Origin: Bacteroidetes bacterium GWA2_40_15
GTDB taxonomy: Bacteria > Bacteroidota > Bacteroidia > Bacteroidales > VadinHA17
Reading direction: 5' to 3'
Length of the DNA stretch: 49,993 nt
Assembly: GCA_001768195.1 (NCBI GenBank)
Contig: MENI01000044.1
Location: forward strand, 1 to 49,993
Shown here: positions 3,454 through 45,620 of the stretch, one piece after another
Position numbering within the stretch: the stretch's first letter is position 1
Layout of the letters: each line of letters opens with the position of its first letter
The notes under the pieces: generated by a model
What the model saw: the letters and a program-made list of their open reading frames with translations, nothing else
Database searches by the model: none
What the model was told of the DNA's origin: nothing
Translations under genes and position numbers: made by a program

Positions 3454-3651
3454 CTGGTTCTTACTTTTCCTTCATTTCCTATGGGTGTAAAATGGCTGAA
3501 ATGGATATTAGTATATTGAATGTTAGTTACTGTAAATATATTAATAAATCAATTATCTTAACTGGGTCGAATAGCCGTACCAGATTTTATGGTTATTCGC
3601 TTTTAATGATAAACTGAGCGATAAGATTAAAGAACCATAAAATAATAATAT

Positions 3652-4545: not shown

Positions 4546-4603
4546 ATTTGATGCAATAAACTCATTTACTCATATTGATAAAAATGGTAATTGAAAGTTT
4601 ATC

Positions 4604-5647: not shown

Positions 5648-5708
5648 ATTGAATTGATGAGTTTCCTTGTCTTTTAATATATTATCTATACATGATATCT
5701 GAGAAAAT

Positions 5709-6908: not shown

Positions 6909-6928
6909 TTTATACAAATTAAGAAATT

Positions 6929-8158: not shown

Positions 8159-8281
8159 AATATTTATTACTCATTTTATCCTTTTATCAATAGGTGTAAC
8201 CATTCAAAAATGGATAATACAATTAAGTAGGGAAACTGTTTTGTATAAGAATCTTTAATCTATAATTAAAATAAAAACATT

Positions 8282-9382: not shown

Positions 9383-9421
9383 TGAGTTTTACTATTATAA
9401 ATAACTAAAATCAATAGATCT

Positions 9422-10405: not shown

Positions 10406-10467
10406 GATCGCGCCTGAAAAAGGCCCGGAAAAGAAAGACCTGTTTATTAACTTTTATTCTCCAAAAA

Positions 10468-12798: not shown

Positions 12799-12820
12799 TT
12801 TATCAGGTAACCTGAACATT

Positions 12821-13117
12821 ATGGGGCATTTAAAAAAGTATTTAAGTTTTACTTTATCAGCAGTAGCTCTGTTTGCCTGTAAGAATCTTGAAAAGAATGA
12901 ACAACCAAATGTCATTATTCTGATGACAGATGATCAGGGATATGGCGATTTTTCAGTTTTTGGGAACCCTGTTGTAAAAACACCTAATCTCGACCACCTT
13001 CATGATGAAAGTATAAGATTTACAGATTTTCATGTGGCACCGGCAAGTGTCCCCACGCTAAGTCAGATGTTAACCTGGTTTGATGCCTACTATGTTTATA
13101 TAAATAAACTGCCTTGA
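12821..13117 (+). pseudogene. Decayed N-terminal fragment of a sulfatase
   Basis: The reading frame starts with a lipoprotein signal (MGHLKKYLSFTLSAVALFAC) and continues with type I sulfatase sequence: NVIILMTDDQGYGDFSVFGN, VKTPNLDHLHDESIRFTDFH and VAPASVPTLSQMLTWFDAYY. The region aligned with the catalytic C/S-x-P-x-R reads S-V-P-T-L, so the essential Arg is Leu, and the following TG is TW. A stop ends the frame after ~99 codons where a sulfatase needs about 450-550. Substitutions plus truncation point to a dead gene. An upstream in-frame ATG at 12782 overlaps the previous gene; 12821 is preferred because it opens the signal peptide. An intact sulfatase exists at 36675. Confidence 0.8.
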
Positions 13118-13218
13118 TAGTTACCGGTTTAAAACATTATTAAATTCATCAGGTAGTTGAAATTCTGATGTGACGAAAATGTACGAAGAGATTTAAATAA
13201 TATTAATCCCAGGCAATC

Positions 13219-14475: not shown

Positions 14476-14487
14476 AAGCGGTCAATT

Positions 14488-29580: not shown

Positions 29581-29834
29581 ACAATGCTGGGATATCGACA
29601 TTCGGAACCGCCAATAGAATCAAAATGGTTGTGAACAAATACCATTTCCATTGTATTAACTAATCTCTTATTTGTAAGGTTAACTTCGAACACATCATTC
29701 AATATCAAAACTGTTAAATTGTTACAACCGGATACATTATTAAAGGCGGGTGTATTCATTTACTGATGGATATAATAATAGTACTTATAGTAATACTTAT
29801 AATTATGATCAAATCAGCTATCATGAAGGGGAGA

Positions 29835-31091
29835 ATGAATTTGTTAATCAATTTATTCAGAAGGCAGACCATCTTTTTAGCATATATGGTCTTTTTTTCA
29901 TCTCAGTTTTCTTCTTCCTGCAGTAGCGATCACTCCATCGAATTCAAACATCAGGTAATTGCAACCCCCCTTCCCGGAACCGAGTGGGGTACCGGGGGAT
30001 TTACATTGGCTGATTATGACGGTGATGGGGATCTCGATGTTACAATACAGTGCAGGTCTGATGATGATAAGGTTTACTGGTATGAATACCGGGAATCTGA
30101 TAAATGGATCCCACATTTTATAGGAATAGCAAGAGAATATCAGTTAGGTGGTACTGCGTATGATGTAAACCGGGATGGCCATACAGATCTTGTTATGGGA
30201 CATGTATGGTTCCGGAATCCCGGGGATCTGAACGCGAATCCTGATTCGGAATGGGATATGTATCCATATAACGGCGATATGCCGGAAGAGAATCATGATA
30301 TAGTTACCGCAGATATAAACCTCGATGGGATGGAGGATATAGTAATGTATAATCAGGAAGCCGGTACTTTACGATGGTATAATACTACAGACCCCTACAA
30401 TTGGACATATACAGACATAGCAACTGACGTTAATGAGAACGATGTGCATTCCGGTTTATTTCCAAAGGGTTTTGCTGATCTTGATAACGATAATTATGTT
30501 GATCTGATAATGCCTGTATTTTGGTATAAGAATCCGGGAACAACAGGTGAGAAATGGATAAAAAAGGAGTACCTGTATACTCCAATTCTTCCTAATCCAT
30601 ATGGAAAAGGGATGAGAGTCTGGTCGGGAGATATCAATAGCGACGAGCTTAATGATATTATTTATTCAGATTGCGATGTCCAGTTTTCAAAGGTGTACTT
30701 ACTCATAAATGAAGACGGCGGAAAGACCTGGAAAAAGGAGGAGATTCCTGTTCCGGAAAGCAATGTTGGAGAATCAGGTTCATTTCATTCGCTCCAGGTT
30801 GCAGACTTTGATAATGATGGCGACCTTGATATTTTTGCCGGAGAACAGGAAGATCCTAATAAATTGATGAAACCACCGGGATTAAAAGAACGGGGTATTA
30901 TCTTTCAAAATATCGGAACAATTAAACGTCCGCAGTTTTCGCCGGTTATCATTCATGAAGATAATCCCGGCTGGCACGATGCTCTTATAGGTGATGTAGA
31001 TGGGGATGGCGATATTGATATTGTCAGCAAAGTCTGGAACGCTGATCAGCCGGTATATCATCTTGATTATTGGGAGAATAAGCTAAAATAG
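29835..31091 (+). CDS. FG-GAP/VCBS seven-bladed beta-propeller lipoprotein (subgroup C)
   Basis: I choose ATG 29835, which follows GAAGGGGAGA, over the upstream ATG at 29766, because it gives a normal lipoprotein signal (MNLLINLFRRQTIFLAYMVF, ending FSSSC). Seven motifs follow: DYDGDGDLD, DVNRDGHTD, DINLDGMED, DLDNDNYVD, DINSDELND, DFDNDGDLD, DVDGDGDID. It resembles the proteins at 13219 and 14488, with IFAGEQEDPNKLMKPPG in blade six and WHDALIGDVDGDGD at the end. It begins a second FG-GAP cluster that follows the catabolic operon after a 254-bp gap. Confidence 0.83.
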   Translation: MNLLINLFRRQTIFLAYMVFFSSQFSSSCSSDHSIEFKHQVIATPLPGTEWGTGGFTLADYDGDGDLDVTIQCRSDDDKVYWYEYRESDKWIPHFIGIAREYQLGGTAYDVNRDGHTDLVMGHVWFRNPGDLNANPDSEWDMYPYNGDMPEENHDIVTADINLDGMEDIVMYNQEAGTLRWYNTTDPYNWTYTDIATDVNENDVHSGLFPKGFADLDNDNYVDLIMPVFWYKNPGTTGEKWIKKEYLYTPILPNPYGKGMRVWSGDINSDELNDIIYSDCDVQFSKVYLLINEDGGKTWKKEEIPVPESNVGESGSFHSLQVADFDNDGDLDIFAGEQEDPNKLMKPPGLKERGIIFQNIGTIKRPQFSPVIIHEDNPGWHDALIGDVDGDGDIDIVSKVWNADQPVYHLDYWENKLK

Positions 31092-31127
31092 AAATTCATT
31101 CAGTTTATTAATATTAAAATAAATAAG

Positions 31128-33446
31128 ATGAAAAGGGGAATTACTCTTACTAAAATTGCCTTGATAACTCTCACAGCTTTTGTCTTTTCCATTATTTCTT
31201 CCTGCTCAGGAGAATCAGATATTAAGAAGAAAAATGGATATTGGGAGCTGTTGATCCTGGATGGGAAAACAGATTTTCGAAATACCGGGTGTCTCGGTGC
31301 TGCTGACATTGACGGTGACGGGAGAGAGGAAATGTTTATCGGAGGCAAAGGTGCATTGGTATGGTACCGTCCCGATACATTTGAGAAGGGGGTGATTGCT
31401 AATGGGAACTTCCATGTCGGTATGGTACTGGAGGATGTTGATGGCTGCGGACTTCCAGAGCTGTTTGTTGGAGAAGAGAGTGCCGATCCAGGAACATGGA
31501 TGATTACCTGGTATAAACCAGGGAAGGATCTGTCAAAACCCTGGGAAAGACATGTAATTGAACCGGCTTTTGACGGAGGGCCTCATGATATTGTCTTTGC
31601 TGACCTCGATGGAGATGGAGAAAACGAACTGGTTTCCATAGCGTGTTATACCTCTACTCCAGGAATATTTGCTTTTAAGCGCAGCATGGATATTAAATCT
31701 CCGTGGACTAAATATCCTGTTTTTGAAGGCATATTTGCGGAAGGGTTGAGTGTTGGAGACCTTAACGGAGACGGAAAACCAGAAATTGTAAACGGCCCTG
31801 ATTGGTATTCACAACCTGATGGAGGAGCACTCTCCGGTCACTGGTCGAGGCATACTTTTGCGCCTAATTTCAGGGAAATGTGCAGGACTGCACTTGTAGA
31901 TATTACAGGTAACGGACGACCTGATATCGTAATAACCGATTCAGAATATATGGATGGATCTCTATCCTGGTTTGAAAACAGGTTAGTGGAAGATCCTGCA
32001 AATCCATGGATAGAGCACAGACTTGAGGACGGAATGATTTATTCACATTCATTGGAAATAAAACAAACTTCCAGGACTAATGAGACCCTCATATTTGTGG
32101 CAGAAATGGAACAGGGGGGATGGAACGCACCATATAATCTTGATGCAAGATTAATGACCTATTTAACAAAGGATGGAGGAAAGACATGGAATAGAGATGT
32201 CCTGTACAAAGGAGAAGGCACTCATCAGGCTATTATGTACGACATAGATAACGATGGGGAGCTTGAAGTACTGGGAAAAACCTGTTCACAGATAGATAAA
32301 AGTCCAAGGGTACAGATATGGGACTACAAAAGCAAACCAACTCTTGACGTAAGCTTTAAACATACTCTGATTGACAGGGATAAACCAATTACAGCAACAG
32401 ATATAATGTCTGCAGATGTTGATAATGATGGCAGACCGGATGTGGTTTGCGGGTCCTGTTGGTATAAAAACCCGACATGGGAGCGATTTGAAATCCCGGG
32501 GATATTTCAGGTCATTAATAATTATGATATTGATAATGATGGGCATATTGAGTTTATTGCATCAAAACGGAACCCTCTTGCCAAAGATGAATATTCGGGA
32601 TTGAGTTCAGGAGAAATATGGTGGATTAAACCTGTTGACCCTATAGAAGGAAAATGGGAGGAATATTTTATCGGAAAGATAAAAGGTGACTGGATACACG
32701 GAAGTGTTATAGCTCCATTGTTACCCGGAGGAAAACTTGCGTTTGTTACCTGCTATCACGATTCCGAAAAAAACGGAAATCCTCCAGAGATATTTGAAAT
32801 TCCGGAAGATCCGAGGAATGGGCCCTGGGAAAAAAGAGTATTCGCTGATGTAAGATACAATGAAGAATTGATTGCTTATGATATGGATTCAGATGGTCTG
32901 CTTGATATTGTTGGTGGCCGGAATTACTTTCATAATCAGGGGGATGGAACTTTTAAAGCTTATCTTACTGATGAAACATCAGATCCGGCCAGAATCAGTA
33001 TGCTGGATGTAAATAAAGATGGAAGGATGGATGTTGTCGTTGGACAGGGTACAATGGATTCCCCGACCCGATCTATCCCTTTCACTCAACTCCTTTGGCT
33101 CGAAAACCCTGTTGATGCAACTGCAGTCCCGTGGAAAAAGCATGTTATCGATATATTACGATGTGCACATTCAATAGGAGTCGCCGATCTCGATGGTGAC
33201 GGTGAAAATGAAATAATAGCAGCGGAGCATGACCCCTACTGGCCTTACAGGAAAAGGTGCAGACTTATGGCATACAAAAAAGCTAACACACAGGGAACAG
33301 CATGGTACCGCTATCTTATTGATGGACGGTTCGAACATCATTCGGGGGCAAAGATATTTGAGATTGAGCCGGGCCGACTCGGGATCGTAAGTCATGGTTG
33401 GAGAGATAAGATCTATGTTCATTTATGGGAGGTGGTTAAAAATTAG
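31128..33446 (+). CDS. Double FG-GAP/VCBS propeller lipoprotein (14 blades, subgroup D)
   Basis: The signal peptide ends at SIISSC near residue 26. The first set reads DIDGDGREE, DVDGCGLPE, DLDGDGENE, DLNGDGKPE, DITGNGRPD, a degenerate blade carrying LIFVAEMEQGGWN, and DIDNDGELE. The second set reads DVDNDGRPD, DIDNDGHIE, a degenerate blade, DMDSDGLLD, DVNKDGRMD, DLDGDGENE and a degenerate final blade. That gives two seven-bladed propellers, with more Glu-ending motifs than the others. It keeps the AEM-x-Q signature. It follows the preceding gene by 36 bp and is probably cotranscribed with it. Confidence 0.82.
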   Translation: MKRGITLTKIALITLTAFVFSIISSCSGESDIKKKNGYWELLILDGKTDFRNTGCLGAADIDGDGREEMFIGGKGALVWYRPDTFEKGVIANGNFHVGMVLEDVDGCGLPELFVGEESADPGTWMITWYKPGKDLSKPWERHVIEPAFDGGPHDIVFADLDGDGENELVSIACYTSTPGIFAFKRSMDIKSPWTKYPVFEGIFAEGLSVGDLNGDGKPEIVNGPDWYSQPDGGALSGHWSRHTFAPNFREMCRTALVDITGNGRPDIVITDSEYMDGSLSWFENRLVEDPANPWIEHRLEDGMIYSHSLEIKQTSRTNETLIFVAEMEQGGWNAPYNLDARLMTYLTKDGGKTWNRDVLYKGEGTHQAIMYDIDNDGELEVLGKTCSQIDKSPRVQIWDYKSKPTLDVSFKHTLIDRDKPITATDIMSADVDNDGRPDVVCGSCWYKNPTWERFEIPGIFQVINNYDIDNDGHIEFIASKRNPLAKDEYSGLSSGEIWWIKPVDPIEGKWEEYFIGKIKGDWIHGSVIAPLLPGGKLAFVTCYHDSEKNGNPPEIFEIPEDPRNGPWEKRVFADVRYNEELIAYDMDSDGLLDIVGGRNYFHNQGDGTFKAYLTDETSDPARISMLDVNKDGRMDVVVGQGTMDSPTRSIPFTQLLWLENPVDATAVPWKKHVIDILRCAHSIGVADLDGDGENEIIAAEHDPYWPYRKRCRLMAYKKANTQGTAWYRYLIDGRFEHHSGAKIFEIEPGRLGIVSHGWRDKIYVHLWEVVKN

Positions 33447-33521
33447 TTGTTTCCCGGGAAATAGCTGGATAAAAAATACTTATAGTAAGATGTAAACACA
33501 TCCGACCTTAAAACAAGGAGA

Positions 33522-34493
33522 ATGATATCATTTAAAGATTCAGGGTTTGTGAATACCCGTGACATGTTTAGTAAAGCTTATGATGGGGCATATGTAATAG
33601 GCGCCTTCAATTTTGTATGTCTTGAACAGATGCAGGCTATAACAGCTGCTGCCATGGAAACCAGGTCTCCCTTTATTATGCAATGCTCCGCAAATGTAGC
33701 CAGATATGTTAATCCAATTATGGTCAGGCATATGGCTGCAGCATGTATTGAGATTATCCGTTCAGAGGGGCTGACGATTCCTATGGCATTACATCTTGAT
33801 CATGGAACTACATTTGAAGAGTGCAAAGCTGCTATAGACGAGGGATTTTCATCTGTAATGATTGACGGTTCTGCACTACCGTTTCAGGAGAACATTGAAC
33901 TTACAGCAAGGGTTGTTGAGTTTGCCAGGAAACATGATGTTACTGTCGAAGGGGAATTAGGTGTCGTTTCAGGAATTGAAGAAGAAATTGAACATAGCGA
34001 ATCACGCTTTACTGACCCGGAGGCAGTATCGGAATTTGTAAAAAGTTCCGGCGTTGATAGTCTGGCTATTTCAATAGGAACATCGCACGGAGTGGTTAAA
34101 ATCAGGGTTAAACCCGGAGAGCCTGTTCCTCCTCTTCGCTTCGACATACTTTCCGAAGTTGAAAAACGACTTCCTGGTTTTCCTATAGTATTGCACGGTG
34201 CATCGGCTATTCCCCAAAAATATGTTGACATGATAAACCAGTATGGAGGGAAACTGGATCAGGCACAGGGAATCCCCGTTGAACAAATAAATCAAGCTGC
34301 TAAAATGGCTGTGTGTAAAATAAATATTGCATCGGATGGCTGGATTACAATGACAGCTGTATCACGCAAAGCATTGGCAGAAAATCCTTCGATAATTGAT
34401 CCCCGCAAGTTCCTTGCCCCGTCAAGAGAAGCAATGAAAGAGATTTATATTTACAAAATGAGGGAGGTATTCAATTGTGCAGGTAAAGCTTAG
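33522..34493 (+). CDS. Second class II aldolase-family enzyme
   Basis: The 323-aa protein has the class II aldolase tracts ALHLDHGTTFEEC, VEGELGVVSGIEEEIEHSES, ISIGTSHG and IVLHGASAIPQ, and the C-terminal KINIASDG. It is closer to typical fructose-1,6-bisphosphate aldolases than the enzyme at 19957, which is shorter and has GGTGLS in place of GASAIP. The start ATG is preceded by AAGGAGA, an unusually good ribosome-binding site for this phylum. Its 3' end overlaps the next FG-GAP gene by 17 bp, so the two are coupled. Confidence 0.85.
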   Translation: MISFKDSGFVNTRDMFSKAYDGAYVIGAFNFVCLEQMQAITAAAMETRSPFIMQCSANVARYVNPIMVRHMAAACIEIIRSEGLTIPMALHLDHGTTFEECKAAIDEGFSSVMIDGSALPFQENIELTARVVEFARKHDVTVEGELGVVSGIEEEIEHSESRFTDPEAVSEFVKSSGVDSLAISIGTSHGVVKIRVKPGEPVPPLRFDILSEVEKRLPGFPIVLHGASAIPQKYVDMINQYGGKLDQAQGIPVEQINQAAKMAVCKINIASDGWITMTAVSRKALAENPSIIDPRKFLAPSREAMKEIYIYKMREVFNCAGKA

Positions 34494-35145
34494 TATAATC
34501 AGATTTCCTTTTATAGGGCAAGCAGCAGAGGAAGCTTCTGAACAGGGCCTTACCACTGGTGATATTGATGGTGATGGATTAATCGATATAATCGCACCTT
34601 ACGGAGTACGTTCGGATCCTACATTAATCGGATGGTGGAAAAACCCTGGTCAACAACCGGGTACATGGAAGCTGAATAAAGTAGGAGAAACACAGAATTA
34701 TTCAGCTGATCGGGTGGCTGTTGCAGATGTGAATGGGGATGGACGGGCAGACATTTTAGTAACGGAGGAGTCATGGCAGACTCCTGAGCACGTTGCCCAG
34801 ATGTTTTGCTTCACTCAGGGAGGTGTTGGTAATGTGCCATTATGGAGCCGCAATTCTGTTTTAACAGCTGCCTCAATGAATAGCATTGGTGTTGCAGATA
34901 TTGACCATGACAAAGACCTTGACATTGTGACATGCGAACATAAAGGAAAAGATCTGCGACTCTTTGTGCTGGAGAATGATGGAAGGGGTCAGTTCACTCC
35001 GCACGTTATTGATCAGGGTAAGGAAAGCCACCTGGGAACACTTCTTTTTGATATGGATAGCGATGGAGACCTCGACATCATAAGTATTGCCTGGGACAAT
35101 TACAAATTCCTGCATTTGTGGCGAAATGATGCATTAAGTCTATAG
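34477..35145 (+). CDS. Short FG-GAP/VCBS protein without signal peptide (four blades)
   Basis: GTG at 34477 follows AGGGAGG, lies within the end of the aldolase gene and starts a 222-aa frame. Only four motifs are present (DIDGDGLID, DVNGDGRAD, DIDHDKDLD, DMDSDGDLD) and no signal peptide or membrane segment, so it appears to be cytoplasmic. Its last part (LFDMDSDGDLDIISIAWDN) resembles the end of the second propeller at 10468. It could be a half-propeller that dimerises, or the surviving 3' part of a longer exported gene; the good ribosome-binding site and overlap favour an expressed protein. The URO-D-like gene follows after 15 bp. Confidence 0.7.
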   Translation: MQVKLSIIRFPFIGQAAEEASEQGLTTGDIDGDGLIDIIAPYGVRSDPTLIGWWKNPGQQPGTWKLNKVGETQNYSADRVAVADVNGDGRADILVTEESWQTPEHVAQMFCFTQGGVGNVPLWSRNSVLTAASMNSIGVADIDHDKDLDIVTCEHKGKDLRLFVLENDGRGQFTPHVIDQGKESHLGTLLFDMDSDGDLDIISIAWDNYKFLHLWRNDALSL

Positions 35146-36674: not shown

Positions 36675-38294
36675 ATGAAGTATACATCAAATATGATCGT
36701 TTGTTCATTGGGGGGAATAATGACTTTTTTCGGCTGCAGTTTAAAAGAAAAAGGTGAGACAAGAAGGCCCAATATCCTTATTGCAATAAGCGATGATCAA
36801 TCCTATTTTCATACGAGCTTTGCCGGTTGTAAATATGTCAATACACCTGGTTTTGACAGGATTGCAGCAAACGGGATATATTTTACAAATTGCTATGCAG
36901 GGTCTCCCGGCAGCGCTCCATCGCGTAGTTCACTTGTGACAGGTCGCCACCATTGGATGAATGAACAGAGTGGTCAACATGCATCCAGCTGGATGGAAAA
37001 ACATGTTCCTTTTGTCGATCTGCTCAGGGCAGACGGATACCATACCGGTTTTACCGGTAAAGGAGTGGGCCCCTTCCAGTATGCTCGGAATGATCAGGAT
37101 TCATTGTGGAGAAGGGAAAACGCGGCGGGGAAAGCCTACAATTCAATTCAATATGAAAGAAATACGCCTGGAGATGAGAGAACAGCCGGAGGCATCGGAG
37201 GTAATAATTATTATGCGAATTTCCGATTGTTCATGAAGGAGAAGCTTCCGGGGAAGCCATTTTATTTCTGGTACGGAGCTACTGAACCGCACCGGGATTA
37301 CGAAAAGGATTCATGGAAGCGCAACAGGAAAGAGCTTGATGAGGCAGAGGTACCTACCTTTCTCCCTGACGATGATGTGATAAGAGGCGACCTGCTCGAT
37401 TACGCTGTGGAGATAGAATGGTTCGATCTTCACCTTAAAAGGATGCTGAATTACCTGGATTCTATTGGAGAACTTGATAACACAATCGTAATTGTAACGG
37501 GCGATAATGGAATGCCTTTTCCAAGGGCAAAGGCAAACGCATTTGATTATGGAGTTCATGTACCGCTTGCAATCAGTTATCCTGATGGTTTCCCGGGGAA
37601 TAGAGTTGTTGAGGACCCAGTAAGTTTTGTCGATATTGCCCCGACTATTCTCGAAATGACAGGAACTGAGTCTGAGGGAATGATGCCCATTTGCGGGAGA
37701 AGTATAACAAACATACTTAAGTCGAAAAAAACAGGAATAGTTGATGAAACGAAAAATTACGTATTCGCTGGCAGGGAGCGCCACTCATCTTCGAGATGGA
37801 ATAATCTGGGCTATCCGATTCGTGCTATCCGAAGCAAGCAGTACTTATTGATATGGAATATGCGCCCTGACCTCTGGCCGGCAGGAGACCCACGGGCATT
37901 TAAGCCCGTTACAGGAGACCTTTTACCTATGTATGGAATCGACGAAAAAGGAATACACAATTCAGAGTGGGCATTTACTGATGTTGATGCATCTCCTTCG
38001 AAAGCATTTATTATCGAAAAACATACAGAAGAGAAAATCAGGTACTATTTTGATCTGGCATTTGCAAAAAGAGCTGAATATGAGTTATATGATTTTATAA
38101 AAGATCCGGATTGTCTTGAAAATCTGTGCGATCAGCCGGTTTATTCTGCAATTGAGCAGGAAATGAAGCTTGAGCTTTTAAAGGAGCTGACGAGGACGGG
38201 AGATCCAAGAGTAGTCGGGCCGGATGCTGATGTTTTTGAAACTTATATACGGTACAGCCCAATAAGGGATTTCCCGGAACCTGATAATAAATAG
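36675..38294 (+). CDS. Type I sulfatase lipoprotein, Ser-type active site
   Basis: The 539-aa protein has a lipoprotein signal (ending MTFFGC), NILIAISDDQ with the metal-binding Asp pair, and the active-site sequence S-A-P-S-R at residues 80-84 (SPGSAPSRSSLVTGRH). The Ser must be converted to formylglycine by an anSME-type maturase, which is not in the window. IVIVTGDNGMPF carries the second Asp/Asn metal pair, and YELYDFIKDPDCLENL is the usual C-terminal tract. It removes sulfate esters from a glycan or small sulfated compound. A purine-rich AAAAAGGA precedes the ATG. A dead sulfatase fragment is at 12821. Confidence 0.9.
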   Translation: MKYTSNMIVCSLGGIMTFFGCSLKEKGETRRPNILIAISDDQSYFHTSFAGCKYVNTPGFDRIAANGIYFTNCYAGSPGSAPSRSSLVTGRHHWMNEQSGQHASSWMEKHVPFVDLLRADGYHTGFTGKGVGPFQYARNDQDSLWRRENAAGKAYNSIQYERNTPGDERTAGGIGGNNYYANFRLFMKEKLPGKPFYFWYGATEPHRDYEKDSWKRNRKELDEAEVPTFLPDDDVIRGDLLDYAVEIEWFDLHLKRMLNYLDSIGELDNTIVIVTGDNGMPFPRAKANAFDYGVHVPLAISYPDGFPGNRVVEDPVSFVDIAPTILEMTGTESEGMMPICGRSITNILKSKKTGIVDETKNYVFAGRERHSSSRWNNLGYPIRAIRSKQYLLIWNMRPDLWPAGDPRAFKPVTGDLLPMYGIDEKGIHNSEWAFTDVDASPSKAFIIEKHTEEKIRYYFDLAFAKRAEYELYDFIKDPDCLENLCDQPVYSAIEQEMKLELLKELTRTGDPRVVGPDADVFETYIRYSPIRDFPEPDNK

Positions 38295-38658: not shown

Positions 38659-40140
38659 ATGAAAACCATCCTACAACAGATTGCCGAAAAAGAGAGGCAG
38701 AATGAGAAAGCCGAAAGAGATTCCATAAATGCCGAGCTCTCCAATCCAGCGACCTCTTCAGATAGAAGAAATTTCCTGAAGAAGGCAGTCCTGGGCGGGA
38801 TTGCTCTCGGGGGCATGATGCATTTGTCAATTGAGGACACAATTGCACAGACTACACAAAAGGTACAGAGGTCCTCAAGCCCTTCCGATCTGAAGATCAC
38901 CGACATGCGTTATGCGACGGTAATGCGCAAGCATATTATCAGGATCGATACAAACCAGGGTATCTATGGCCTTGGCGAGGTAAGGGACGGAGCAGATGTT
39001 CGTTATGCCCTTATGCTCAAAAGCAGGATCCTTAGTCTGAATCCCTGCAATGTTGAAATGATCTTCAAAATAATAAGGCAGTTCGGATATCACGGACGTC
39101 AGGGCGGAGGAGTATGTGCCGTAGAAATGGCTCTATGGGATCTTACCGGTAAAGCATATAATGTGCCGGCATGGCAACTTCTGGGGGGAAGATACCGTGA
39201 TAAGGTAAGACTTTATGCTGATACTCCTGATGCCGGAGATGCTGTGAAATTTGCCGAGACTATGAAAAAAAGAGTTGAGGATCAGGGATTTACATGGCTG
39301 AAAATGGATCTTGGAATTCATGTTGTGGCAAAGAATCCCGATTCATTGGTCAATAGTAAATTCTGGGATGGGGCTGCCGGCCAGTATGACCTGAGAACCT
39401 ATATGGGATATGGAAATACTCTGCACCCATTCACCCAGGTACAGATTACAGATAAAGGCCTCGCTGGTCTCGCTGAATATGTTGAATCAGTCAGAAATGC
39501 AGTTGGTTACGAAATGCCATTATGTGCAGACCATTTCGGACATTTTGATGTAAATAATTCTATCCGTTTTGGCAAAGCGATGGAAAAATACAGGCTTGCA
39601 TGGCTTGAAGATATGGTTCCATGGTTCGATATTCAAGGGAATAAAACCTTGTCGGATGCCCTTGAAACACCGGTGCTCACCGGCGAAGATATTTACTGTC
39701 TCAAAGATGGATTCAAACCACTTATCGATGCACGAGCTGTAGATATCATTCATCCTGATCTCGGTTCATCAGGAGGGCTTCTTGAAACAAAGAGGATAGG
39801 CGATTATGCCGAGGAGAATGGAGTGGCAATGGCAATGCACATGGCAGGTTCGCCTGTATGTCTGATGGCTAACGTACATTGTGCGGCAGCAACTCAGAAC
39901 TTCCTTTCACTTGAACATCACAGTGTTGATAATCCCAACTGGGAAAGTGTTGTTAAAATGACAGGAAGCCAGCCGATGATAACCAAAGGTTTCGCGAATG
40001 TACCTCTCGATTCTCCGGGATTGGGGATTGAGCTTAATGAAGAGGTATGCAAGAAGTTCCTGCCTCCGAATACCAAGCAGTATTTTGATCCTACCCCTGA
40101 ATGGGATCAGAAACAATCACATGACAGGTTATGGAGTTGA
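38659..40140 (+). CDS. Tat-exported enolase-superfamily enzyme (mandelate racemase-like), copy 1
   Basis: The 493-aa protein has a Tat-type leader with D-R-R-N-F-L-K at residues 35-41, preceded by an unusually long polar ~34-residue N-extension and followed by GGIALGG. The mature part has the MR-subgroup metal ligands Asp291 (CADHFGHFD), Glu317 (WLEDMVPW) and Glu343 (LTGEDIY), Lys215 in the second-strand K-M-D motif, and the Asp367/His394 dyad (IIHPDLG, AMHMAGSP). Such enzymes dehydrate sugar acids to 2-keto-3-deoxy acids, or racemise them. The Tat leader places the enzyme in the periplasm, unlike most characterised sugar acid dehydratases. It is followed by a gene relic and an exported RraA-like protein. 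Confidence 0.85.
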   Translation: MKTILQQIAEKERQNEKAERDSINAELSNPATSSDRRNFLKKAVLGGIALGGMMHLSIEDTIAQTTQKVQRSSSPSDLKITDMRYATVMRKHIIRIDTNQGIYGLGEVRDGADVRYALMLKSRILSLNPCNVEMIFKIIRQFGYHGRQGGGVCAVEMALWDLTGKAYNVPAWQLLGGRYRDKVRLYADTPDAGDAVKFAETMKKRVEDQGFTWLKMDLGIHVVAKNPDSLVNSKFWDGAAGQYDLRTYMGYGNTLHPFTQVQITDKGLAGLAEYVESVRNAVGYEMPLCADHFGHFDVNNSIRFGKAMEKYRLAWLEDMVPWFDIQGNKTLSDALETPVLTGEDIYCLKDGFKPLIDARAVDIIHPDLGSSGGLLETKRIGDYAEENGVAMAMHMAGSPVCLMANVHCAAATQNFLSLEHHSVDNPNWESVVKMTGSQPMITKGFANVPLDSPGLGIELNEEVCKKFLPPNTKQYFDPTPEWDQKQSHDRLWS

Positions 40141-40360
40141 TGACTACCTTCACCGGGCTGCTGATTCTTCCAACTGGCCAGGTGGATTAAAATATGATCC
40201 TGATAACAGTGGTAACCCTTTATCGAGCCTGGGAGTTCATGAACACTGGAATGATCCTGTCAGTAAACAGTATTCCGGGAACCTTGGCAGGACGGGAGGC
40301 ATCGAGCTTGTTTCTGTACCTGATACTCTTGTTAAAACCTTAAAAACTGTTAAAAACTGA
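40139..40360 (+). pseudogene. Relic of the C-terminus of a DUF362-like protein
   Basis: Starting at the stop codon of the enolase gene, one frame reads YLHRAADSSNWPGG, then KYDPDNSGNPLSSLGVHEHW and NDPVSKQYSGNLGRTGGIEL, ending in VSVPDTLV. This closely recalls the C-terminal end of DUF362-type proteins of Bacteroidota (the SLGVHEHWN...KQYSRNLG...GIEL pattern). There is no start codon or N-terminal domain in frame, so it is a truncated leftover. It sits between the enolase gene and its RraA-like partner, and no such sequence is present between the second pair (41423 and 42930). It may mark the site of a recombination or insertion. Confidence 0.6.
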
Positions 40361-40431
40361 TGATTATAAACATCTTATGATCAGTTTAACTATATTTATC
40401 TCAGAAAAATTAAAATCTTAAACACGAAATT

Positions 40432-41364
40432 ATGAATAGGAAAATCTTATTACTATCAGCATTTATTCTTGGTACTTTATTTACCTATGCACAGAACGTA
40501 GGTTCATCGCCTGAATATATTAAGGCTATCACATCCGACTGGAAGGGTGAACGCTTTGAAGATGGCCGGCCAAAAGTGTCGGATGCCAAGCTTGAAAGAC
40601 TTAAAAACATCTCAGTTGAAGAGGCATGGGGCTATCTTCGTAACAAAGGTTTCCAGAACCAGTTTGAAAACGACTGGCTGATACTTAAGCCGGAGGAGGT
40701 TATGACAGGCAGGGTGGTAACTGCTCAGTATATGCCTCTGAGATCTGACCTTAGCAATTATATTAAAGAACAGGGGAAAAAAGAGAACCGGGCACAAAAG
40801 GGAGGTACAAACTCATGGCCAATTGATATCCTTGTAAATGGAGATGTTTATGTTGCTGATGCTTATGGCAAAATTGTTGATGGTACCCTTATCGGTGATA
40901 ACCTTGGCAATTCAATATATGCAAAATCACAACGTGGAGTGATATTCTATGGTTCTGTCAGGGATCAGGAGGGGCTTGAAGAAATTGAAGGATTCAATGG
41001 ATGGATAAAAGGATCCGATCCGTCATATATCATGCAGATGATGCTCACTTCCATTAACGCGCCCATCAGGGTCGGCCGGGCAATAGTTATGCCGGGCGAT
41101 GTTGTGCTGGCAAAAAAATATGGAGTTGTATTCATTCCTGCTTACCTTCTCGATGATCTGCTGATCAATGCTGAGGTGACAGCATTAAGAGATCAGTTTG
41201 GACATCAGCGTCTTAAAGAGAAGAAATACCTTGCCGGAGAGATTGACAGTGAATGGACCGATGAGATCAAGAAGGATTTCATGGACTGGCTGAAAAAATA
41301 TCCCGGTAAATTGCCGATGACACAGAAAGAACTTGATGACTATTTCAAGGAAAGAAACTGGTAG
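40432..41364 (+). CDS. Exported RraA-family protein (HMG/CHA aldolase-like), copy 1
   Basis: The 310-aa protein has a Sec signal (MNRKILLLSAFILGTLFTYAQ) and a mature domain of the RraA/dimethylmenaquinone methyltransferase fold: GDVYVADAYGKIVDGTLIGD, then the RraA core ending GVIFYGSVRDQEGL with the Arg-Asp pair (substrate/metal) and INAPIRVGRAIVMPGDVVLA. Related enzymes are 4-hydroxy-4-methyl-2-oxoglutarate aldolases and oxaloacetate decarboxylases that release pyruvate. The extra N-terminal ~80 residues and the C-terminal helix (KLPMTQKELDDYF) are shared with copy 2 but are not part of typical RraA. The signal peptide predicts a periplasmic place, the same as its enolase partner. Confidence 0.82.
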   Translation: MNRKILLLSAFILGTLFTYAQNVGSSPEYIKAITSDWKGERFEDGRPKVSDAKLERLKNISVEEAWGYLRNKGFQNQFENDWLILKPEEVMTGRVVTAQYMPLRSDLSNYIKEQGKKENRAQKGGTNSWPIDILVNGDVYVADAYGKIVDGTLIGDNLGNSIYAKSQRGVIFYGSVRDQEGLEEIEGFNGWIKGSDPSYIMQMMLTSINAPIRVGRAIVMPGDVVLAKKYGVVFIPAYLLDDLLINAEVTALRDQFGHQRLKEKKYLAGEIDSEWTDEIKKDFMDWLKKYPGKLPMTQKELDDYFKERNW

Positions 41365-41422
41365 CCCATTGGGGGATGTTTTTGAACCTAAACAAATTCT
41401 ATCAATTATAAACAGATAAATC

Positions 41423-42910
41423 ATGAAAAGTATTATTAAACAGATTACTGAACAGAACCGTAAAATGGAAGCAGCAGAAGCTGAAACCATAAAGAAAGAG
41501 ATCAACAACCCATCTACTTCAAATGACCGCCGGAGCTTTCTGAAGAAGGCTGCCATGGGTGGCGTTGCCCTGGGAGGGTTGATGCATTTGTCTATAGAAG
41601 ATACCATTGCTCATACAACTCAGAAAGTAAACAAATCATCTGCACCTTCAGACCTGAAGATCACTGATATGCGTGTTGCACTGACCGGGGTTATGGGCGG
41701 TACAGCAATTATCAAGATTGACACTAACCAGGGTATATATGGTTTGGGTGAGGTAAGGGATGCAGCTGACCCACGCTATGCTCTTATGCTGAAAAGCCGT
41801 ATTCTGGGATTGAATCCCTGTAATGTTGAAATGATCTTCAAGATCATAAAGCAATTTGGACATCATGGCCGCCAGGGAGGCGGTGTCTCAGGTGTTGAGA
41901 TGGCTCTGTGGGATCTTTGCGGCAAAGCATACGGCGTTCCCGCATGGCAGTTGCTGGGCGGAAGATACCGCGATAAAGTAAGGTTATATGCTGATACTCC
42001 TGAAGGCAAATCGAAGGAGGAACAGATGCAGAGGATCAAATTCAGAACTGAGGATCAGGGATACACCTGGCTTAAGATGGACCTTTCCATTAATGAGCTG
42101 AAAAATATTCCCGGAGCACTTGTAAACCAGAAATTCTGGGATGGCGCATCGGGCCAGTATGACATGAGGAGCTATATGGGTTATGGAAATACCAAACATC
42201 CTTTTACCCAGATACAGATTACTGACAAAGGACTTGACGAATTAGCCAGAATTGCTTCTGAAGCAAGAGAACTTGTAGGATACGAGATCCCGATATGTAC
42301 TGACCACTATGGGCATTTTGATGTTAACAATGGTATTCGTCTTGGTAAAGCAATTGAGAAATACAGGCTTGCATGGATGGAAGATATTGTTCCATGGGAA
42401 TATACCGACCAGTGGAAGATATTGTCAGATGCACTTGAAACTCCTATGCTTACAGGAGAGGATATTTACCTGCTGAATGGGTTTAAACCGCTTATCGATG
42501 CTAAGGCGGTTGATATTATTCACCCTGACCTGGCTACATCAGGCGGTCTTCTTGAGACAAAAAGGTTAGGTGACTATGCTGAGGAGCATGGTATAGCAAT
42601 GGCTATGCACCAGGCCGGAACTCCGGTCTCGTTCATGGCTAACGTACATTGCGCAGCAGCTACACAGAACTTCCTTTCGCTGGAGCACCACTCCGTAGAC
42701 CTTCCCTGGTGGGAAAGTCTTGTGAAAATGACCGGCAGTCAGCCGATGATTAATAAAGGATTTGCAAATGTTCCACTTGATTCTCCGGGACTCGGTATTG
42801 ACCTCAATGAAGAGGTTATAAAGCAACATATGCACCAGAGAGCCAATGGTTACTTTCTGCCTACTCCTGAGTGGGATAAGAAAGAATCACACGACAGGCT
42901 GTGGAGCTAG
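41423..42910 (+). CDS. Tat-exported enolase-superfamily enzyme (mandelate racemase-like), copy 2
   Basis: This 495-aa paralogue of the protein at 38659 has the same layout: twin Arg at residues 36-37 (DRRSFLKKAAMGGVALGG), the same K-M-D second-strand motif (WLKMDLSINE), metal-ligand tracts CTDHYGHFD, WMEDIVPW and LTGEDIY, and the H-D dyad (IIHPDLATSGG, AMHQAGTPV). Differences cluster at IIKIDTNQG, the TPEGKSKEEQMQ loop and the GYFLPTPEW end. Both copies keep all catalytic residues, so both should be active, possibly on different sugar acids. The partner RraA-like gene starts 19 bp after its stop. Confidence 0.86.
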   Translation: MKSIIKQITEQNRKMEAAEAETIKKEINNPSTSNDRRSFLKKAAMGGVALGGLMHLSIEDTIAHTTQKVNKSSAPSDLKITDMRVALTGVMGGTAIIKIDTNQGIYGLGEVRDAADPRYALMLKSRILGLNPCNVEMIFKIIKQFGHHGRQGGGVSGVEMALWDLCGKAYGVPAWQLLGGRYRDKVRLYADTPEGKSKEEQMQRIKFRTEDQGYTWLKMDLSINELKNIPGALVNQKFWDGASGQYDMRSYMGYGNTKHPFTQIQITDKGLDELARIASEARELVGYEIPICTDHYGHFDVNNGIRLGKAIEKYRLAWMEDIVPWEYTDQWKILSDALETPMLTGEDIYLLNGFKPLIDAKAVDIIHPDLATSGGLLETKRLGDYAEEHGIAMAMHQAGTPVSFMANVHCAAATQNFLSLEHHSVDLPWWESLVKMTGSQPMINKGFANVPLDSPGLGIDLNEEVIKQHMHQRANGYFLPTPEWDKKESHDRLWS

Positions 42911-42929
42911 AATCAAAAAAAATAGTATA

Positions 42930-43928
42930 ATGAAAAAACTGACAATTCTGATCCTGGCTATTATAATAGTCAGCTTCACTGCAAATTCACAAACAGTGAA
43001 ATGGCCTGCTGATGACATTAAGCTTTTAACAAAAGAGTGGACAGGTGAACGTACACCGGATGGCAGACCAAAGGTACCGGATGACCTGCTTGAGCGGTTA
43101 AAACATATCTCCATGGAGGAGTGCTGGGGCTTTCTCAAGAGCAACGGTTATGAGAACCAGTTTGAGAACTTCTCAAGTACTTATGAGAATGGCTGGGTTA
43201 TAATCCATCCTGACAAGGTGATGACAGGCCGTGTTGTTACAGCCCAGTTCATGCCTCTCAGGAAAGATTTTGATGCTTATATTCAGGAAATTGGCAAGAA
43301 GCAGAACATGACTTCGCCTGTTACCAATTATGCTCCAATAAATGCATTGACTGAAGGAGACATTTATGTAGCCGACAGTTACGGGAAAATTGCAAATGGC
43401 ACACTGATTGGTGATAACCTTGCTAATGCTATCTACAAAAATGGTAAAAGAGGTATTATTTTCAACGGATCGGTAAGAGATATGGAAGGACTGACAGAAA
43501 TTGATGGATTCAATGGCTGGATAAGAGGATCTGATCCATCAGCTATTGAACAGATGTTGTGTGCTACCGTTAATGCCCCTATTCGTATTGGAAGGGTAAC
43601 AGTACTGCCAGGTGACGTCGCTCTTGCAAAACCGACCGGCATTACCTTTATCCCTCCTCATCTTGTTGCAGAGTGCGTGATATCAGGAGAATACACAGCT
43701 TTGCGTGACCAGTTCAATTTTTTCTGCATTCAGACAAAAAAATTCAAGTATGACAACGAAAGTTTCGTCGATGTTACTCCTGAGGAGCTTGATAAAGCAT
43801 TCGTTGAATGGATTAATGCCAAATCTGACCTGCCAATGGACAAGAAGGAACTGTTTGATTATATGGACAAGATGAAGGCTGAAAGAGCTAAGAGAAGAGC
43901 TGAAGCGGAAGCAAGGAAAAAAAATTAG
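42930..43928 (+). CDS. Exported RraA-family protein (HMG/CHA aldolase-like), copy 2
   Basis: The start is set to ATG 42930, which opens a clean signal peptide (MKKLTILILAIIIVSFTANS); an earlier in-frame start at 42846 would lie inside the enolase gene. The mature 310 residues match copy 1, with EWTGERTPDGRPKVPDDLL, GDIYVADSYGKIANGTLIGD, GSVRDMEGL and INAPIR-type VNAPIRIGRVTVLPGDVALA. The Arg-Asp pair of the RraA core is kept. The C-terminus ends in a charged, Ala/Lys/Arg-rich tail (KAERAKRRAEAEARKKN) absent from copy 1. It is part of the second of two tandem enolase-RraA pairs. Confidence 0.83.
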   Translation: MKKLTILILAIIIVSFTANSQTVKWPADDIKLLTKEWTGERTPDGRPKVPDDLLERLKHISMEECWGFLKSNGYENQFENFSSTYENGWVIIHPDKVMTGRVVTAQFMPLRKDFDAYIQEIGKKQNMTSPVTNYAPINALTEGDIYVADSYGKIANGTLIGDNLANAIYKNGKRGIIFNGSVRDMEGLTEIDGFNGWIRGSDPSAIEQMLCATVNAPIRIGRVTVLPGDVALAKPTGITFIPPHLVAECVISGEYTALRDQFNFFCIQTKKFKYDNESFVDVTPEELDKAFVEWINAKSDLPMDKKELFDYMDKMKAERAKRRAEAEARKKN

Positions 43929-43965
43929 GATTGTCCCGGAACCATTGATAACTTAAATTTTTTAA

Positions 43966-44400
43966 ATGAAAAAATACATTTTTGTAATCGTTTTCCTGTT
44001 TACAGTCTCATTGAGCTCATATAGCCAGACTGCTGCAGAAAAGGAAGTTGCTTCAGCAGTAGAGAACCTTATGAAGGGATTTATTGATGCTGATAAGAAT
44101 ATCCTGGATAATATGACTGCTGAGGAACTTAATTATGGCCATTCAGCAGGCAAAGTTCAGAATAAAACTGAGTTTGTTGATGAAGTGATCAGCGGCAAGC
44201 CACTCGATTATTTAAAAATTGACCTTGAAGGCCAGACCATTAAAGTTACAGGAAAGACTGCTGTTGTCCGTCATATCTTTAATGCTGAAACAAGCAGTAA
44301 CGGAACTCCCGGGAAACTGCGAATAGGAAATATGATGGTATGGCAGAAGCAAAAGGGTAAATGGAAGTTAATAGCTCGACAGGCTTACAAATTACCATAA
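43966..44400 (+). CDS. Exported NTF2-like/DUF4440-type protein
   Basis: The 144-aa product has a Sec signal (MKKYIFVIVFLFTVSLSSYSQ) and an NTF2-like (SnoaL/DUF4440) cone fold: VASAVENLMKGFIDADKNIL, MTAEELNYGHSAGKVQ, VTGKTAVVRHIFNAET and VWQKQKGKWKLIARQAYKLP, the typical C-terminal W-K-L-I-A-R-Q. Such domains bind small ligands or act as simple dehydratases/isomerases. It is the last gene of the enolase/RraA group, 37 bp after the second RraA gene and 23 bp before the terminator stem, so it probably takes part in the same periplasmic conversion. Confidence 0.78.
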   Translation: MKKYIFVIVFLFTVSLSSYSQTAAEKEVASAVENLMKGFIDADKNILDNMTAEELNYGHSAGKVQNKTEFVDEVISGKPLDYLKIDLEGQTIKVTGKTAVVRHIFNAETSSNGTPGKLRIGNMMVWQKQKGKWKLIARQAYKLP

Positions 44401-45185: not shown

Positions 45186-45620
45186 ATGTCGTACATCAGA
45201 ATCTGGGTCCATTGCGTATGGACTACAAAAAGAAGGATACCTTACATGGGTAATCAAATAAGAGATGCTATAATTGAGCATATTTGTGAAAATGCAAAAC
45301 AAAAAGGTATTCATATCGATCACATTAATGGATATCAGGAACATTTCCATTCTCTTATTTCCCTGGGAGGAAAGCAAAATATTTCAGAGATCATGAAAAC
45401 AATAAAAGGAGAAAGCTCTTACTGGATAAATAAAAACAGATTAACAAAACTTAAATTTGAATGGCAGGATGATTATTATGCAGTTTCTATTGGTATGAAT
45501 CAGGTTGATTCCCTGAGGGAATATATCCGAAACCAGGTTCAGCATCACGAGAAGGTATCCTTTAAGGATGAGATTGATAGATTAATTGAGGAATATAAAT
45601 TTGAGAGATTCAGGGACTAA
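45186..45620 (+). CDS. Y1 (HUH) transposase, IS200/REP-associated type
   Basis: The 144-aa protein is of the Y1_Tnp family (single-strand transposases). It opens with SYIRIWVHCVWTTKRRIPYM, typical of REP-associated tyrosine transposases. The HUH metal motif is His-Phe-His in QEHFHSLISLGG, and the catalytic Tyr is in FEWQDDYYAVSIGMNQVDSL, followed by REYIRNQVQHHEKVSF. The family nicks hairpin DNA at palindromes as a dimer. The stop codon TAA and the last two codons (AGG GAC) fall inside the GGGACTAAAGTCCC hairpin of the right end. The reading frame is intact with no stops, so the element may be active. Confidence 0.9.
   Translation: MSYIRIWVHCVWTTKRRIPYMGNQIRDAIIEHICENAKQKGIHIDHINGYQEHFHSLISLGGKQNISEIMKTIKGESSYWINKNRLTKLKFEWQDDYYAVSIGMNQVDSLREYIRNQVQHHEKVSFKDEIDRLIEEYKFERFRD

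Follow-up and report, generated by a model that had tools for sequence, protein, structure and literature searches.

Does the window, a 49,993-nucleotide stretch of contig MENI01000044.1 from Bacteroidetes bacterium GWA2_40_15, encode a route that breaks down sugar acids outside the cytoplasm? To our knowledge, the central steps of sugar-acid catabolism are generally taken to be cytoplasmic. The initial annotation had described a Tat-type enolase-superfamily gene with a Sec-type RraA-family gene twice over and an NTF2-like gene at the end, and this layout was recovered at 38659-44400 by ORFs, Pfam matches and leaders (Table 1). We consider it somewhat probable that these genes form an extracytoplasmic sugar-acid module, in which dehydration by a Tat-enolase would be followed by retro-aldol cleavage by RraA. 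In the periplasm, Tat-exported E1 or E2 would dehydrate an aldonic (or related) acid to a 2-keto-3-deoxy acid. The co-exported R1 or R2 would then take this acid as its substrate and, most likely, split it in a metal-dependent retro-aldol reaction into pyruvate and an aldehyde. In relatives, uptake of the 2-oxo acid would fall to an SBF/PanS-like Na+ symporter encoded by a linked gene. From computed features, namely export signals, gene adjacency and its conservation, intact metal sites and neighbouring exported enzymes of 2-keto-3-deoxy-acid families, we infer actual export, the substrate with its dehydration, cleavage by a retro-aldol reaction and the cargo of the symporter. The export signals, the functional linkage and the sugar-acid setting of the initial annotation are retained here; its pair units are not, and the active site and the release of pyruvate are read with more reserve.

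Table 1. Genes of the module and its upstream neighbour in the window
Feature	Position	Strand	Details
E1, Tat-type enolase-superfamily protein (EnoA type)	38659..40140	+	493 aa; ORF list, Pfam, motif DRRNFLKK
R1, RraA-family enzyme, Sec-type signal peptide	40432..41364	+	310 aa; ORF list, Pfam
E2, Tat-type enolase-superfamily protein (EnoA type)	41423..42910	+	495 aa; Pfam, TIGR01409
R2, second, divergent RraA-family enzyme with export leader	42930..43928	+	332 aa, ATG 42930
NTF2-like/DUF4440 protein with export-type start	43966..44400	+	144 aa; Pfam
Sulfatase, upstream neighbour, outside the conserved module	36675..38294	+	Pfam

Both E1 and E2 carry the Pfam domains MR_MLE_N and MR_MLE_C, the C domain scoring 157.7 (E1) and 144.9 bits (E2) against a cut-off of 29.4. 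R1 and R2 matched the RraA-like family PF03737 (57.5 and 66.6 bits; cut-off 24.5) and the last gene matched DUF4440 (49.4 bits; cut-off 25.2). A third RraA gene of the genome lies on contig C123, with no partner recognised nearby by eye. The listed ORF of R2 begins at 42846, within E2; the ATG at 42930, 19 bp past E2, yields the form with a signal peptide. The gaps R1-E2 (58 bp), E2-R2 (19 bp) and R2-NTF2 (37 bp) are short against the 292 bp between E1 and R1, and therefore R1, E2, R2 and the NTF2-like gene look like one operon, with E1 slightly apart. Promoter and terminator scans gave counts inside the range of their shuffles. A link between the sulfatase and the module was rejected, since 0 of 115 related loci matched its protein (E<=1e-20 over 150 residues).

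It is firmly established that enolase and RraA genes usually lie side by side across Bacteroidota; recurrence of the pairing in other genomes had been proposed as a check, and the pairing proved to be conserved. Among the best 80 of at least 563 RraA-family relatives, a Tat-type enolase is encoded within 3 kb of RraA in 76 loci, and in the remaining four the sequence ends 15-595 bases beyond RraA; a cluster related to the NTF2-like gene was seen again in 9 of the 80. Because the ORF picker had missed the EnoA of locus L181 and the RraA of L185, the related loci were recounted by tblastn, independently of ORF picking. This revealed an enolase within 5 kb in 106 of 109 RraA regions, the three others all lying at contig ends. 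In 392 evenly sampled genomes of Bacteroidota, RraA was present in 25 and EnoA in 16, all 16 among those 25 (Fisher p 1.9e-22, with genomes treated as independent, though they are not). The 16 EnoA genomes cover seven families, and their number may be low, as at most three candidates were scored per genome; in G311 the EnoA-like match is no more than a short piece. The two genes are adjacent (<=350 bp) in 15 of the 16, three of these pairs being divergent, so that adjacency survives inversion. In G487, also one of the 16, EnoA is found close to the beginning of a contig, with RraA encoded on other contigs; one of these RraA loci, L184, lies mid-contig with no enolase beside it. Cultured relatives that have the pair include Algoriphagus iocasae (L096) and Chitinophaga rupis (L131). 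Nine of the 37 RraA regions in the phylum sample are without an enolase within 5 kb: L165, L166, L170 and L171 carry a DgaE-type set instead, L195 has SBF and amidohydrolase genes near a contig end, L197 has an SBF gene at a contig end, and L167, L175 and L184 show no recognised dehydratase or lyase.

Gene order within the genus led us to reject E1-R1 and E2-R2, the units initially annotated. All 30 co-located R1-type genes, one of them a fragment, have their nearest enolase downstream, and all four R2-type genes have it upstream; since an enolase follows R1-type and precedes R2-type genes, the neighbours that are conserved are R1-E2 and E2-R2, which leaves E1 as a tandem copy. The order is not fixed outside the genus: of the 76 loci with an enolase among the best 80, 57 have the nearest one after RraA and 19 have it before.

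Leaders on both partners, as annotated initially, were confirmed as signals. E1 and E2 contain the Tat motifs DRRNFLKK and DRRSFLKK, read from the sequence, each behind an n-region about 35 residues long. E2 exceeds the TIGR01409 cut-off (20.0 against 16.7 bits), and E1 gave no match to this model at E<=1e-3. By eye, R1, R2 and the NTF2-like protein begin with K/R, followed by a hydrophobic stretch and then a small-residue site ahead of Gln. In the related loci, the Tat motif is found in 72 of 73 EnoA proteins (the exception reads CRRSFLKK) and in 35 of 35 proteins of EnoB, a second Tat-enolase that belongs to a sister module. A simple hydropathy heuristic, applied to the relatives for Sec-type leaders, detected hydrophobic leaders in 104 of the 109 RraA proteins of these loci; of the other five, two have no anchor motif and three are sub-threshold, two of these three being truncated at a contig end.

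Could the pairing or the leaders be meaningless? Chance neighbourhood, or a link that stems only from recent duplication or horizontal transfer of a block, would agree with the tandem copies in the window. The adjacency persists, however, with altered order, on divergent strands and with different partner enzymes, and the EnoA genomes come from seven families; on the adjacency counts in the genus, the 80 loci, the 392-genome sample and the tblastn recount, this explanation was rejected, and we regard its probability as negligible. The leaders, in turn, might be cosmetic, with one or both proteins in the cytoplasm and the pathway an ordinary intracellular one. Long Tat n-regions, the lack of a listed TIGR01409 match for E1 and a localisation that is a prediction would fit this. 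Against it, the signals recur in nearly all relatives, the retention of two separate export routes across such distances is difficult to account for unless the proteins are exported, and a TatC gene is present in the same genome; we consider cosmetic leaders very improbable.

The active site was analysed in 75 EnoA sequences (73 from the best 80 related loci, E1 and E2) and 35 EnoB sequences. The D-E-E metal site and H-D dyad, initially annotated as intact, are so: metal ligands D291, E317 and E343 and the dyad D367/H394 (E1 numbering) are invariant in 12 aligned homologues, and the D-E-E ligands at the ends of beta3, beta4 and beta5 as well as the beta6/beta7 Asp-His dyad (D295/H322, A4 numbering) occur in 75/75 EnoA and 35/35 EnoB. 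In the structure model of E2 (pLDDT 89.2), the D-E-E ligands lie at or next to the strand ends. The end of beta2 reads Lys-x-Asp in 75/75 EnoA and 35/35 EnoB, not Lys-x-Lys, which is a feature of mandelate racemase itself. Identity with the site of known aldonate dehydratases throughout was not found. The beta3 Asp-x-His, which has a role in galactonate, gluconate and mannonate dehydratases as a feature of these enzymes, is retained in 35/35 EnoB and replaced by Asp-His-Tyr/Phe in 75/75 EnoA, including E1 and E2; histidines of EnoA's own (H221, H224 and H348, A4 numbering) are present in 75/75. With D-galactonate and D-gluconate dehydratases (NF010624, NF040790; 3twa) EnoA shares the two-domain fold, D-E-E and H-D, to which EnoB adds the beta3 D-x-H, whereas E1 and E2 lack the beta3 His, carry a Tat leader and score far under the equivalog cut-offs (best 160.6 and 171.1 bits against 311 in NCBIfam, below every listed curated dehydratase cut-off). 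The top match of E2 by sequence and by structure (Foldseek) was 2qq6, whose title gives no specific function; among 50 Foldseek rows, 20 are titled dehydratase (many merely putative), one isomerase, and the rest bear family names only.

R1 and R2 score under every curated cut-off of the RraA family (R1: 53.3 against 304.5 bits for LigK and 27.9 against 136 for RraA). Foldseek with the AlphaFold2 model of R1 (pLDDT 88.7) revealed 5x15 (E 3.1e-13) and 3noj (E 6.9e-12), the latter, an HMG/CHA aldolase at rank 5, being the first match with an aldolase title. The Arg-Asp pair (R157/D158 of A3) is invariant in 39 sequences and aligns with that of 3noj, and Asp136 is present in at least 90%; we take Asp...Arg-Asp to be the active-site residues of the RraA / HMG-CHA aldolase family. 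HMG/CHA aldolase (3noj, Pseudomonas putida) and RraAS2 (5x15) thus have the fold and the Arg-Asp motif in common with R1, but share ~19-24% identity. Neither is known to carry an export leader, and the substrate of HMG/CHA aldolase derives from protocatechuate, unlike the proposed sugar acid.

These sites leave two other chemistries to be weighed. The enolase may be an epimerase, a cycloisomerase or a beta-eliminating enzyme for uronates or glycosyl acids, RraA then using either what the enolase makes or a parallel substrate. The superfamily also contains racemases and cycloisomerases, and the loss of the beta3 His, the additional histidines of EnoA and the unspecific title of 2qq6 agree with such a role. 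EnoB, with its canonical dehydratase site, has the same RraA/SBF neighbourhood, however, and a single isomerase title faces the 20 (often putative) dehydratase titles, so we consider a non-dehydratase decidedly unlikely. A credible though unlikely variant keeps the exported module and makes RraA a dehydratase/decarboxylase, or a decarboxylase, of the 2-keto-3-deoxy acid, the imported product then being a semialdehyde or a non-pyruvate keto acid. The NCBIfam name of the related LigK family is aldolase/oxaloacetate decarboxylase. The only sugar-acid RraA enzyme that we found in print, FlDet of Flavobacterium sp. UMI-01, is a dehydratase/decarboxylase: this 27 kDa enzyme from cell extract, whose gene is flanked by an alginate lyase gene, converts 2-keto-3-deoxy-D-glucarate to alpha-ketoglutaric semialdehyde (PMC8563752). 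Like R1 and R2 it belongs to the RraA family of a Bacteroidota, and it is a precedent for the action of this family on a 2-keto-3-deoxy sugar acid (PMC8563752). Its substrate is a dicarboxylic acid, however, the main text of the paper contains neither 'signal peptide' nor 'periplasm', and the passages on FlDet name no enolase partner (PMC8563752). The first aldolase-titled match of R1, 3noj, also argues for an aldolase. That RraA releases pyruvate, as initially annotated, is a plausible reading, and given FlDet not the sole option.

Other partners of RraA in the relatives bear on the preferred dehydration and retro-aldol sequence. RraA also adjoins EnoB, Tat-UxuA or DgaE-like lyases with export signals, whose families presumably yield a 2-keto-3-deoxy acid. 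EnoB is galactonate dehydratase-like with canonical D-x-H and H-D sites, and Tat-UxuA scores above the mannonate dehydratase subfamily cut-off. AraA and GH3 genes in the neighbourhood at L164 and L168 point to L-arabinonate and D-xylonate as candidate substrates of EnoB. The four loci with a DgaE-family lyase (L165, L166, L170, L171) have an amidohydrolase alongside and three of them RidA; this grouping was set after viewing these loci and its library comes from the same four, so that the count is descriptive only. One clade of the RraA tree comprises 38 rows with EnoB as the nearest partner in 36, and 12 further EnoB-labelled rows fall in the EnoA-type part. L183 and L193 contain a PQQ dehydrogenase and a gluconolactonase with export-type starts inside the same cluster; such genes were found in a minority of loci only, by BLAST with few query proteins, and their counts may be low. 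SusC, SusD, GH88, GH127, transketolase, DHDPS and AGE epimerase were identified by eye, without a search. The pathway had initially been called complete, but it would need oxidation, lactonase and importer genes, which were not recognised beside the module in the window and are present in some relatives.

We tentatively propose that in many Bacteroidota PQQ oxidation and a lactonase would feed interchangeable exported EnoA, EnoB, UxuA or DgaE-RidA enzymes, each a dehydratase or an ammonia lyase, followed by a common exported RraA aldolase and delivery of pyruvate to a Na+/2-oxo-acid symporter. Such a pathway, wholly outside the cytoplasm up to that symporter and no more certain than its parts, would amount to an Entner-Doudoroff-like route in the periplasm whose front ends can be exchanged. 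The non-phosphorylative Entner-Doudoroff pathway combines an aldonate dehydratase with a KDG aldolase, and the module, as proposed from its genes, would share the logic of dehydrating an aldonate and cleaving a 2-keto-3-deoxy acid. The versions that we know of are cytoplasmic, with DHDPS-type or HpcH-type aldolases, whereas in the module each of the two proteins has an export leader and an RraA-type enzyme comes second. Pseudomonads oxidise sugars in the periplasm with PQQ-dependent enzymes and a gluconolactonase and import gluconate or ketogluconate. L183 and L193 resemble this system; in contrast to it, the module would place dehydration and the step after it outside as well. An exported RraA, a Tat-enolase/RraA pair or an extracytoplasmic version of the pathway was not recognised in a literature search of partial coverage, which is weak evidence of novelty. 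If the proposed route is correct, Bacteroidota would place carbon-carbon bond cleavage in the periplasm, and what passes the inner membrane would be pyruvate or other 2-oxo acids. Hundreds of RraA-family proteins (at least 563 relatives) and their 'mandelate racemase' neighbours would then gain a testable role, and SBF symporters a possible cargo. The route would also bear on how Bacteroidota of soil, peat and marine habitats use uronates and aldonates, and on the hunt for new aldolases.

Of the 25 RraA genomes, 17 have an SBF/PanS-like symporter gene whose start is no more than 5 kb from that of RraA, and 18 of 57 SBF genes lie near RraA against 0.2 expected, the set of 57 leaving out two rows below the cut-off. 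PanS/BASS symporters are the best-matching families of the SBF neighbour tested (NF047939, 238.8 bits; TIGR00841, 229.6 bits), yet both scores stay under the curated thresholds (400 and 326.3). The genome studied here has two SBF genes, on contigs C14 and C110, neither of them close to the module. Locus L207 of the same genome combines a Tat-enolase and SBF with KDG-kinase-like and KDPG-aldolase genes and has no RraA; SBF may therefore import the 2-keto-3-deoxy acid itself.

Domain searches, alignment and the ORF listing agreed with the initial annotation on the positions, families and motifs of five genes: two Tat-type enolase-superfamily proteins (E1 and E2, EnoA type), two RraA-family proteins with Sec-type signal peptides (R1 and R2) and an NTF2-like protein. 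The start of R2 is best placed at 42930; a mechanical ORF start at 42846 falls within E2. The intergenic gaps E1-R1, R1-E2, E2-R2 and R2-NTF2 of 292, 58, 19 and 37 bp suggest that R1-E2-R2-NTF2 form one operon, with E1 upstream of it.

Coordinates of the module and of other features in the window and at further loci
Feature	Location	Positions	Strand	Description
E1	window	38659-40140	+	Tat-type enolase, EnoA type
R1	window	40432-41364	+	RraA family
E2	window	41423-42910	+	Tat-type enolase, EnoA type
R2	window	42930-43928	+	RraA family
NTF2-like	window	43966-44400		NTF2-like/DUF4440
Transposase	window	45186-45620		IS200-like Y1
Repeat proteins	window	962-15801, 29766-35145	+	FG-GAP/VCBS-like
L001	contig C94, same genome	832-2175		MR_MLE_C ORF
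L205	contig C123, same genome	5063-7612		two mannonate-dehydratase types
L207	contig C110, same genome	3442-8253		Tat-enolase and SBF locus
L063		18173-19228		divergent exported RraA

The genome of GWA2_40_15 encodes TatC. Its 14 MR_MLE_C matches include, by eye, the glycolytic enolase (L014) and a protein without a leader (L010). A strict twin-arginine motif was read from the sequence in E1 and E2 and was scored in a separate leader check in seven other enolase-superfamily proteins; Tat leaders on such enzymes are therefore common in this genome. Three RraA-like genes, two of them within the window, each carry a signal peptide as judged by eye. Export of both enzymes is strongly indicated. 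Just 3' of the module lies a transposase (PF01797, 92.4 bits). Elsewhere in the window about ten proteins that by eye resemble FG-GAP/VCBS repeat proteins, many of which start with a signal peptide or like a lipoprotein, share their stretches with sugar kinase, class II aldolase, epimerase-like and Gfo/Idh-like genes. In the L001 ORF the first ~130 residues resemble, by eye, the beginning of a GH30-type lipoprotein, and the rest matches MR_MLE_C; this looks like a chimeric gene or an assembly join.

The family was covered by 118 genomes: 46, all of one genus, have R1-like genes and 42 have EnoA-like genes. Both occurred together in 41 genomes, in 31 of which they lay at most 2.5 kb apart on the same strand. 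Of the other ten, one (G029) has a truncated enolase adjoining RraA at a contig end (L064), and in four (G033, G084, G088 and G047) either the RraA or the enolase gene starts less than 150 bases from the contig start. Where the genes were co-located, the nearest enolase was downstream of R1-type genes in 30/30 cases (one a fragment) and upstream of R2-type genes, which are 56-59% identical to R1, in 4/4. One genome (G064) carries the same E1...R1-E2-R2 set as the window; in another (G090) a contig carries E1-E2-R2 but no R1. Enolase/RraA adjacency is thus kept in the genus, but the tandem pairs proposed initially have to be redrawn: R1-E2 and E2-R2, not E1-R1, are the pairs whose adjacency is conserved, and E1 is a tandem copy.

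A contig search with the RraA alignment matched at least 592 stretches, at least 563 of them encoding relatives, of which the best 80 were kept by likeness to R1, the partner not being used. Judged by their record titles, all 80 belong to the Bacteroidota, with Bacteroidales, Cyclobacteriaceae, Chitinophagaceae and Flavobacteriaceae among the groups represented. A Tat-type enolase was found within 3 kb of RraA on the same strand in 76/80 loci, after RraA in 57 and before it in 19; the remaining four loci stop 15 to 595 bases past RraA, and in one of them (L088) tblastn detects a partial enolase. Because these loci were selected by likeness to R1, an even draw of 392 phylum genomes was used. 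RraA occurred in 25 and EnoA in 16, spanning seven families and all within the 25 (Fisher p 1.9e-22, a value too strong since the genomes are related). The EnoA-RraA gap was at most 350 bp in 15 of the 16, with divergent orientation in three (G307, G366 and G472). The exception is G487: its EnoA is placed ~600 bases into a contig, and its RraA genes are all found on different contigs. One of these RraA genes has a mid-contig position but no enolase beside it (L184); another (L185) adjoins EnoB, a second type of Tat-enolase. Conservation of the pairing in other genomes, set earlier as a check, is borne out by these counts; computationally, both the gene module and its conservation are established.

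An EnoA, EnoB, UxuA or DgaE gene was located within 5 kb of 105/109 RraA genes in the 80 loci and of 30/36 in the phylum sample (ORF counts); the four without such a partner among the 109 sit at contig ends. A tblastn recount confined to enolases placed one within 5 kb of 106/109 and 28/37 RraA regions, respectively. Among the nine phylum exceptions, four (L165, L166, L170 and L171) carry a DgaE-type set instead, L195 has an amidohydrolase and a PanS/BASS-like symporter gene (SBF) near a contig end, and L197 lies at a contig end with SBF; no partner was recognised near RraA in L167, L175 and L184. EnoB (~425 aa) is ~30% identical to EnoA, carries the Tat motif in 35/35 sequences and has galactonate dehydratase as its best model (237.5 bits, below the cut-off of 311). 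In the RraA tree the nearest partner was EnoB in 36/38 rows of one clade, yet 12 more EnoB-labelled rows fall in the EnoA-type part, so that RraA and dehydratase types match broadly, not strictly. An L-arabinose isomerase in one EnoB locus (L164) and a GH3 gene in another (L168) hint at L-arabinonate or xylonate as substrate.

At the four DgaE-type loci, RraA and SBF are accompanied by DgaE-family PLP proteins that begin like Tat substrates; the two scored reached 166.9 and 196.7 bits, below the cut-off of 385.3. Exported amidohydrolases are also present (436.1 bits for the one scored, against a cut-off of 371), and three of the loci have RidA-family proteins as well; the set looks like an extracytoplasmic amino-sugar-acid route. 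The Tat-UxuA of L098 scored above its subfamily cut-off (254.8 vs 191). All these partner families (EnoB, UxuA, DgaE/amidohydrolase/RidA) presumably yield, or contribute to making, a 2-keto-3-deoxy acid or the amino-sugar-acid equivalent. The strongest argument for RraA acting on such an acid is that a single exported RraA is placed behind a variety of front ends. A divergent exported RraA branch (L063, L070, L071, L072 and L200; about 35-42% identity to R1) forms its own deep clade, with DHDPS-, KDG-kinase-, 2-hydroxyacid dehydrogenase- and transketolase-like genes and SBF at several loci (by eye). RraA from three MAG records titled 'Spirosoma fluviale' (L108, L110 and L116) cluster tightly with Algoriphagus sequences, and these titles may be wrong.

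Alignment of 75 EnoA sequences showed invariant metal ligands, H-D dyad and beta2 Lys. The beta3 motif is Asp-His-Tyr/Phe-Gly-His in 75/75 EnoA and Asp-Met/Ala-His-Gly-Arg in 35/35 EnoB at the columns counted. In galactonate dehydratase the beta3 His is catalytic, whereas EnoA has Tyr/Phe at this place. EnoA is thus a separate type, with a chemistry not readable from its family. Structure models of R1 and E2 were good (pLDDT 88.7 and 89.2); the nearest structures were 5x15, 3k4i and 3noj for R1 and 2qq6 for E2, for which 20 of the 50 best rows are titled dehydratase, many only putative.

The best reading of the module is a putative dehydratase followed by an RraA enzyme: the enolase-superfamily protein would form a 2-keto-3-deoxy acid on which RraA would then act. 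The pathway proposed initially is upheld as to the conserved gene module and the strongly indicated export; its RraA step may be that of an aldolase or of a dehydratase/decarboxylase. The latter is represented by FlDet, an RraA-family protein proven on a 2-keto-3-deoxy sugar acid and described as a dehydratase/decarboxylase purified from cell extract (PMC8563752). In the literature searched, no other RraA-family enzyme proven on such an acid was found and no exported RraA version was recognised. Another paper names Dyadobacter RraA proteins among possible benzoate-degradation genes (PMC12584681).

The 25 RraA genomes contain 57 SBF genes above cut-off. For 18 of these, spread over 17 genomes, the distance to RraA is at most 5 kb (0.2 expected); in the 80 loci SBF accompanies 67/109 RraA genes at this distance. 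The SBF neighbour tested had PanS and BASS as best models, both below cut-off. At two loci, L183 and L193, EnoA, SBF and RraA share a cluster with a PQQ dehydrogenase that contains a cytochrome c domain and with a member of the gluconolactonase family that begins like a lipoprotein. Such a complete oxidation-to-import set is the exception, since the PQQ dehydrogenase was found in six loci (2/80 best, 4/35 phylum) and the lactonase in six (0/80 and 6/35). Neither of the two SBF genes in the window's genome is near the module. Its L207 has a Tat-enolase divergent from SBF, KDG-kinase-like and KDPG aldolase genes (the last 347.7 bits, cut-off 275), with no RraA. The compound imported at L207 is probably the 2-keto-3-deoxy acid itself, a possible route being periplasmic dehydration, import of this acid and a cytoplasmic Entner-Doudoroff pathway; the RraA loci may likewise import it. 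At L205 of the same genome two unrelated mannonate-dehydratase types adjoin, both with Tat leaders, one ManD-like (391.6 bits, cut-off 550) and one UxuA (235.2 bits, subfamily cut-off 191).
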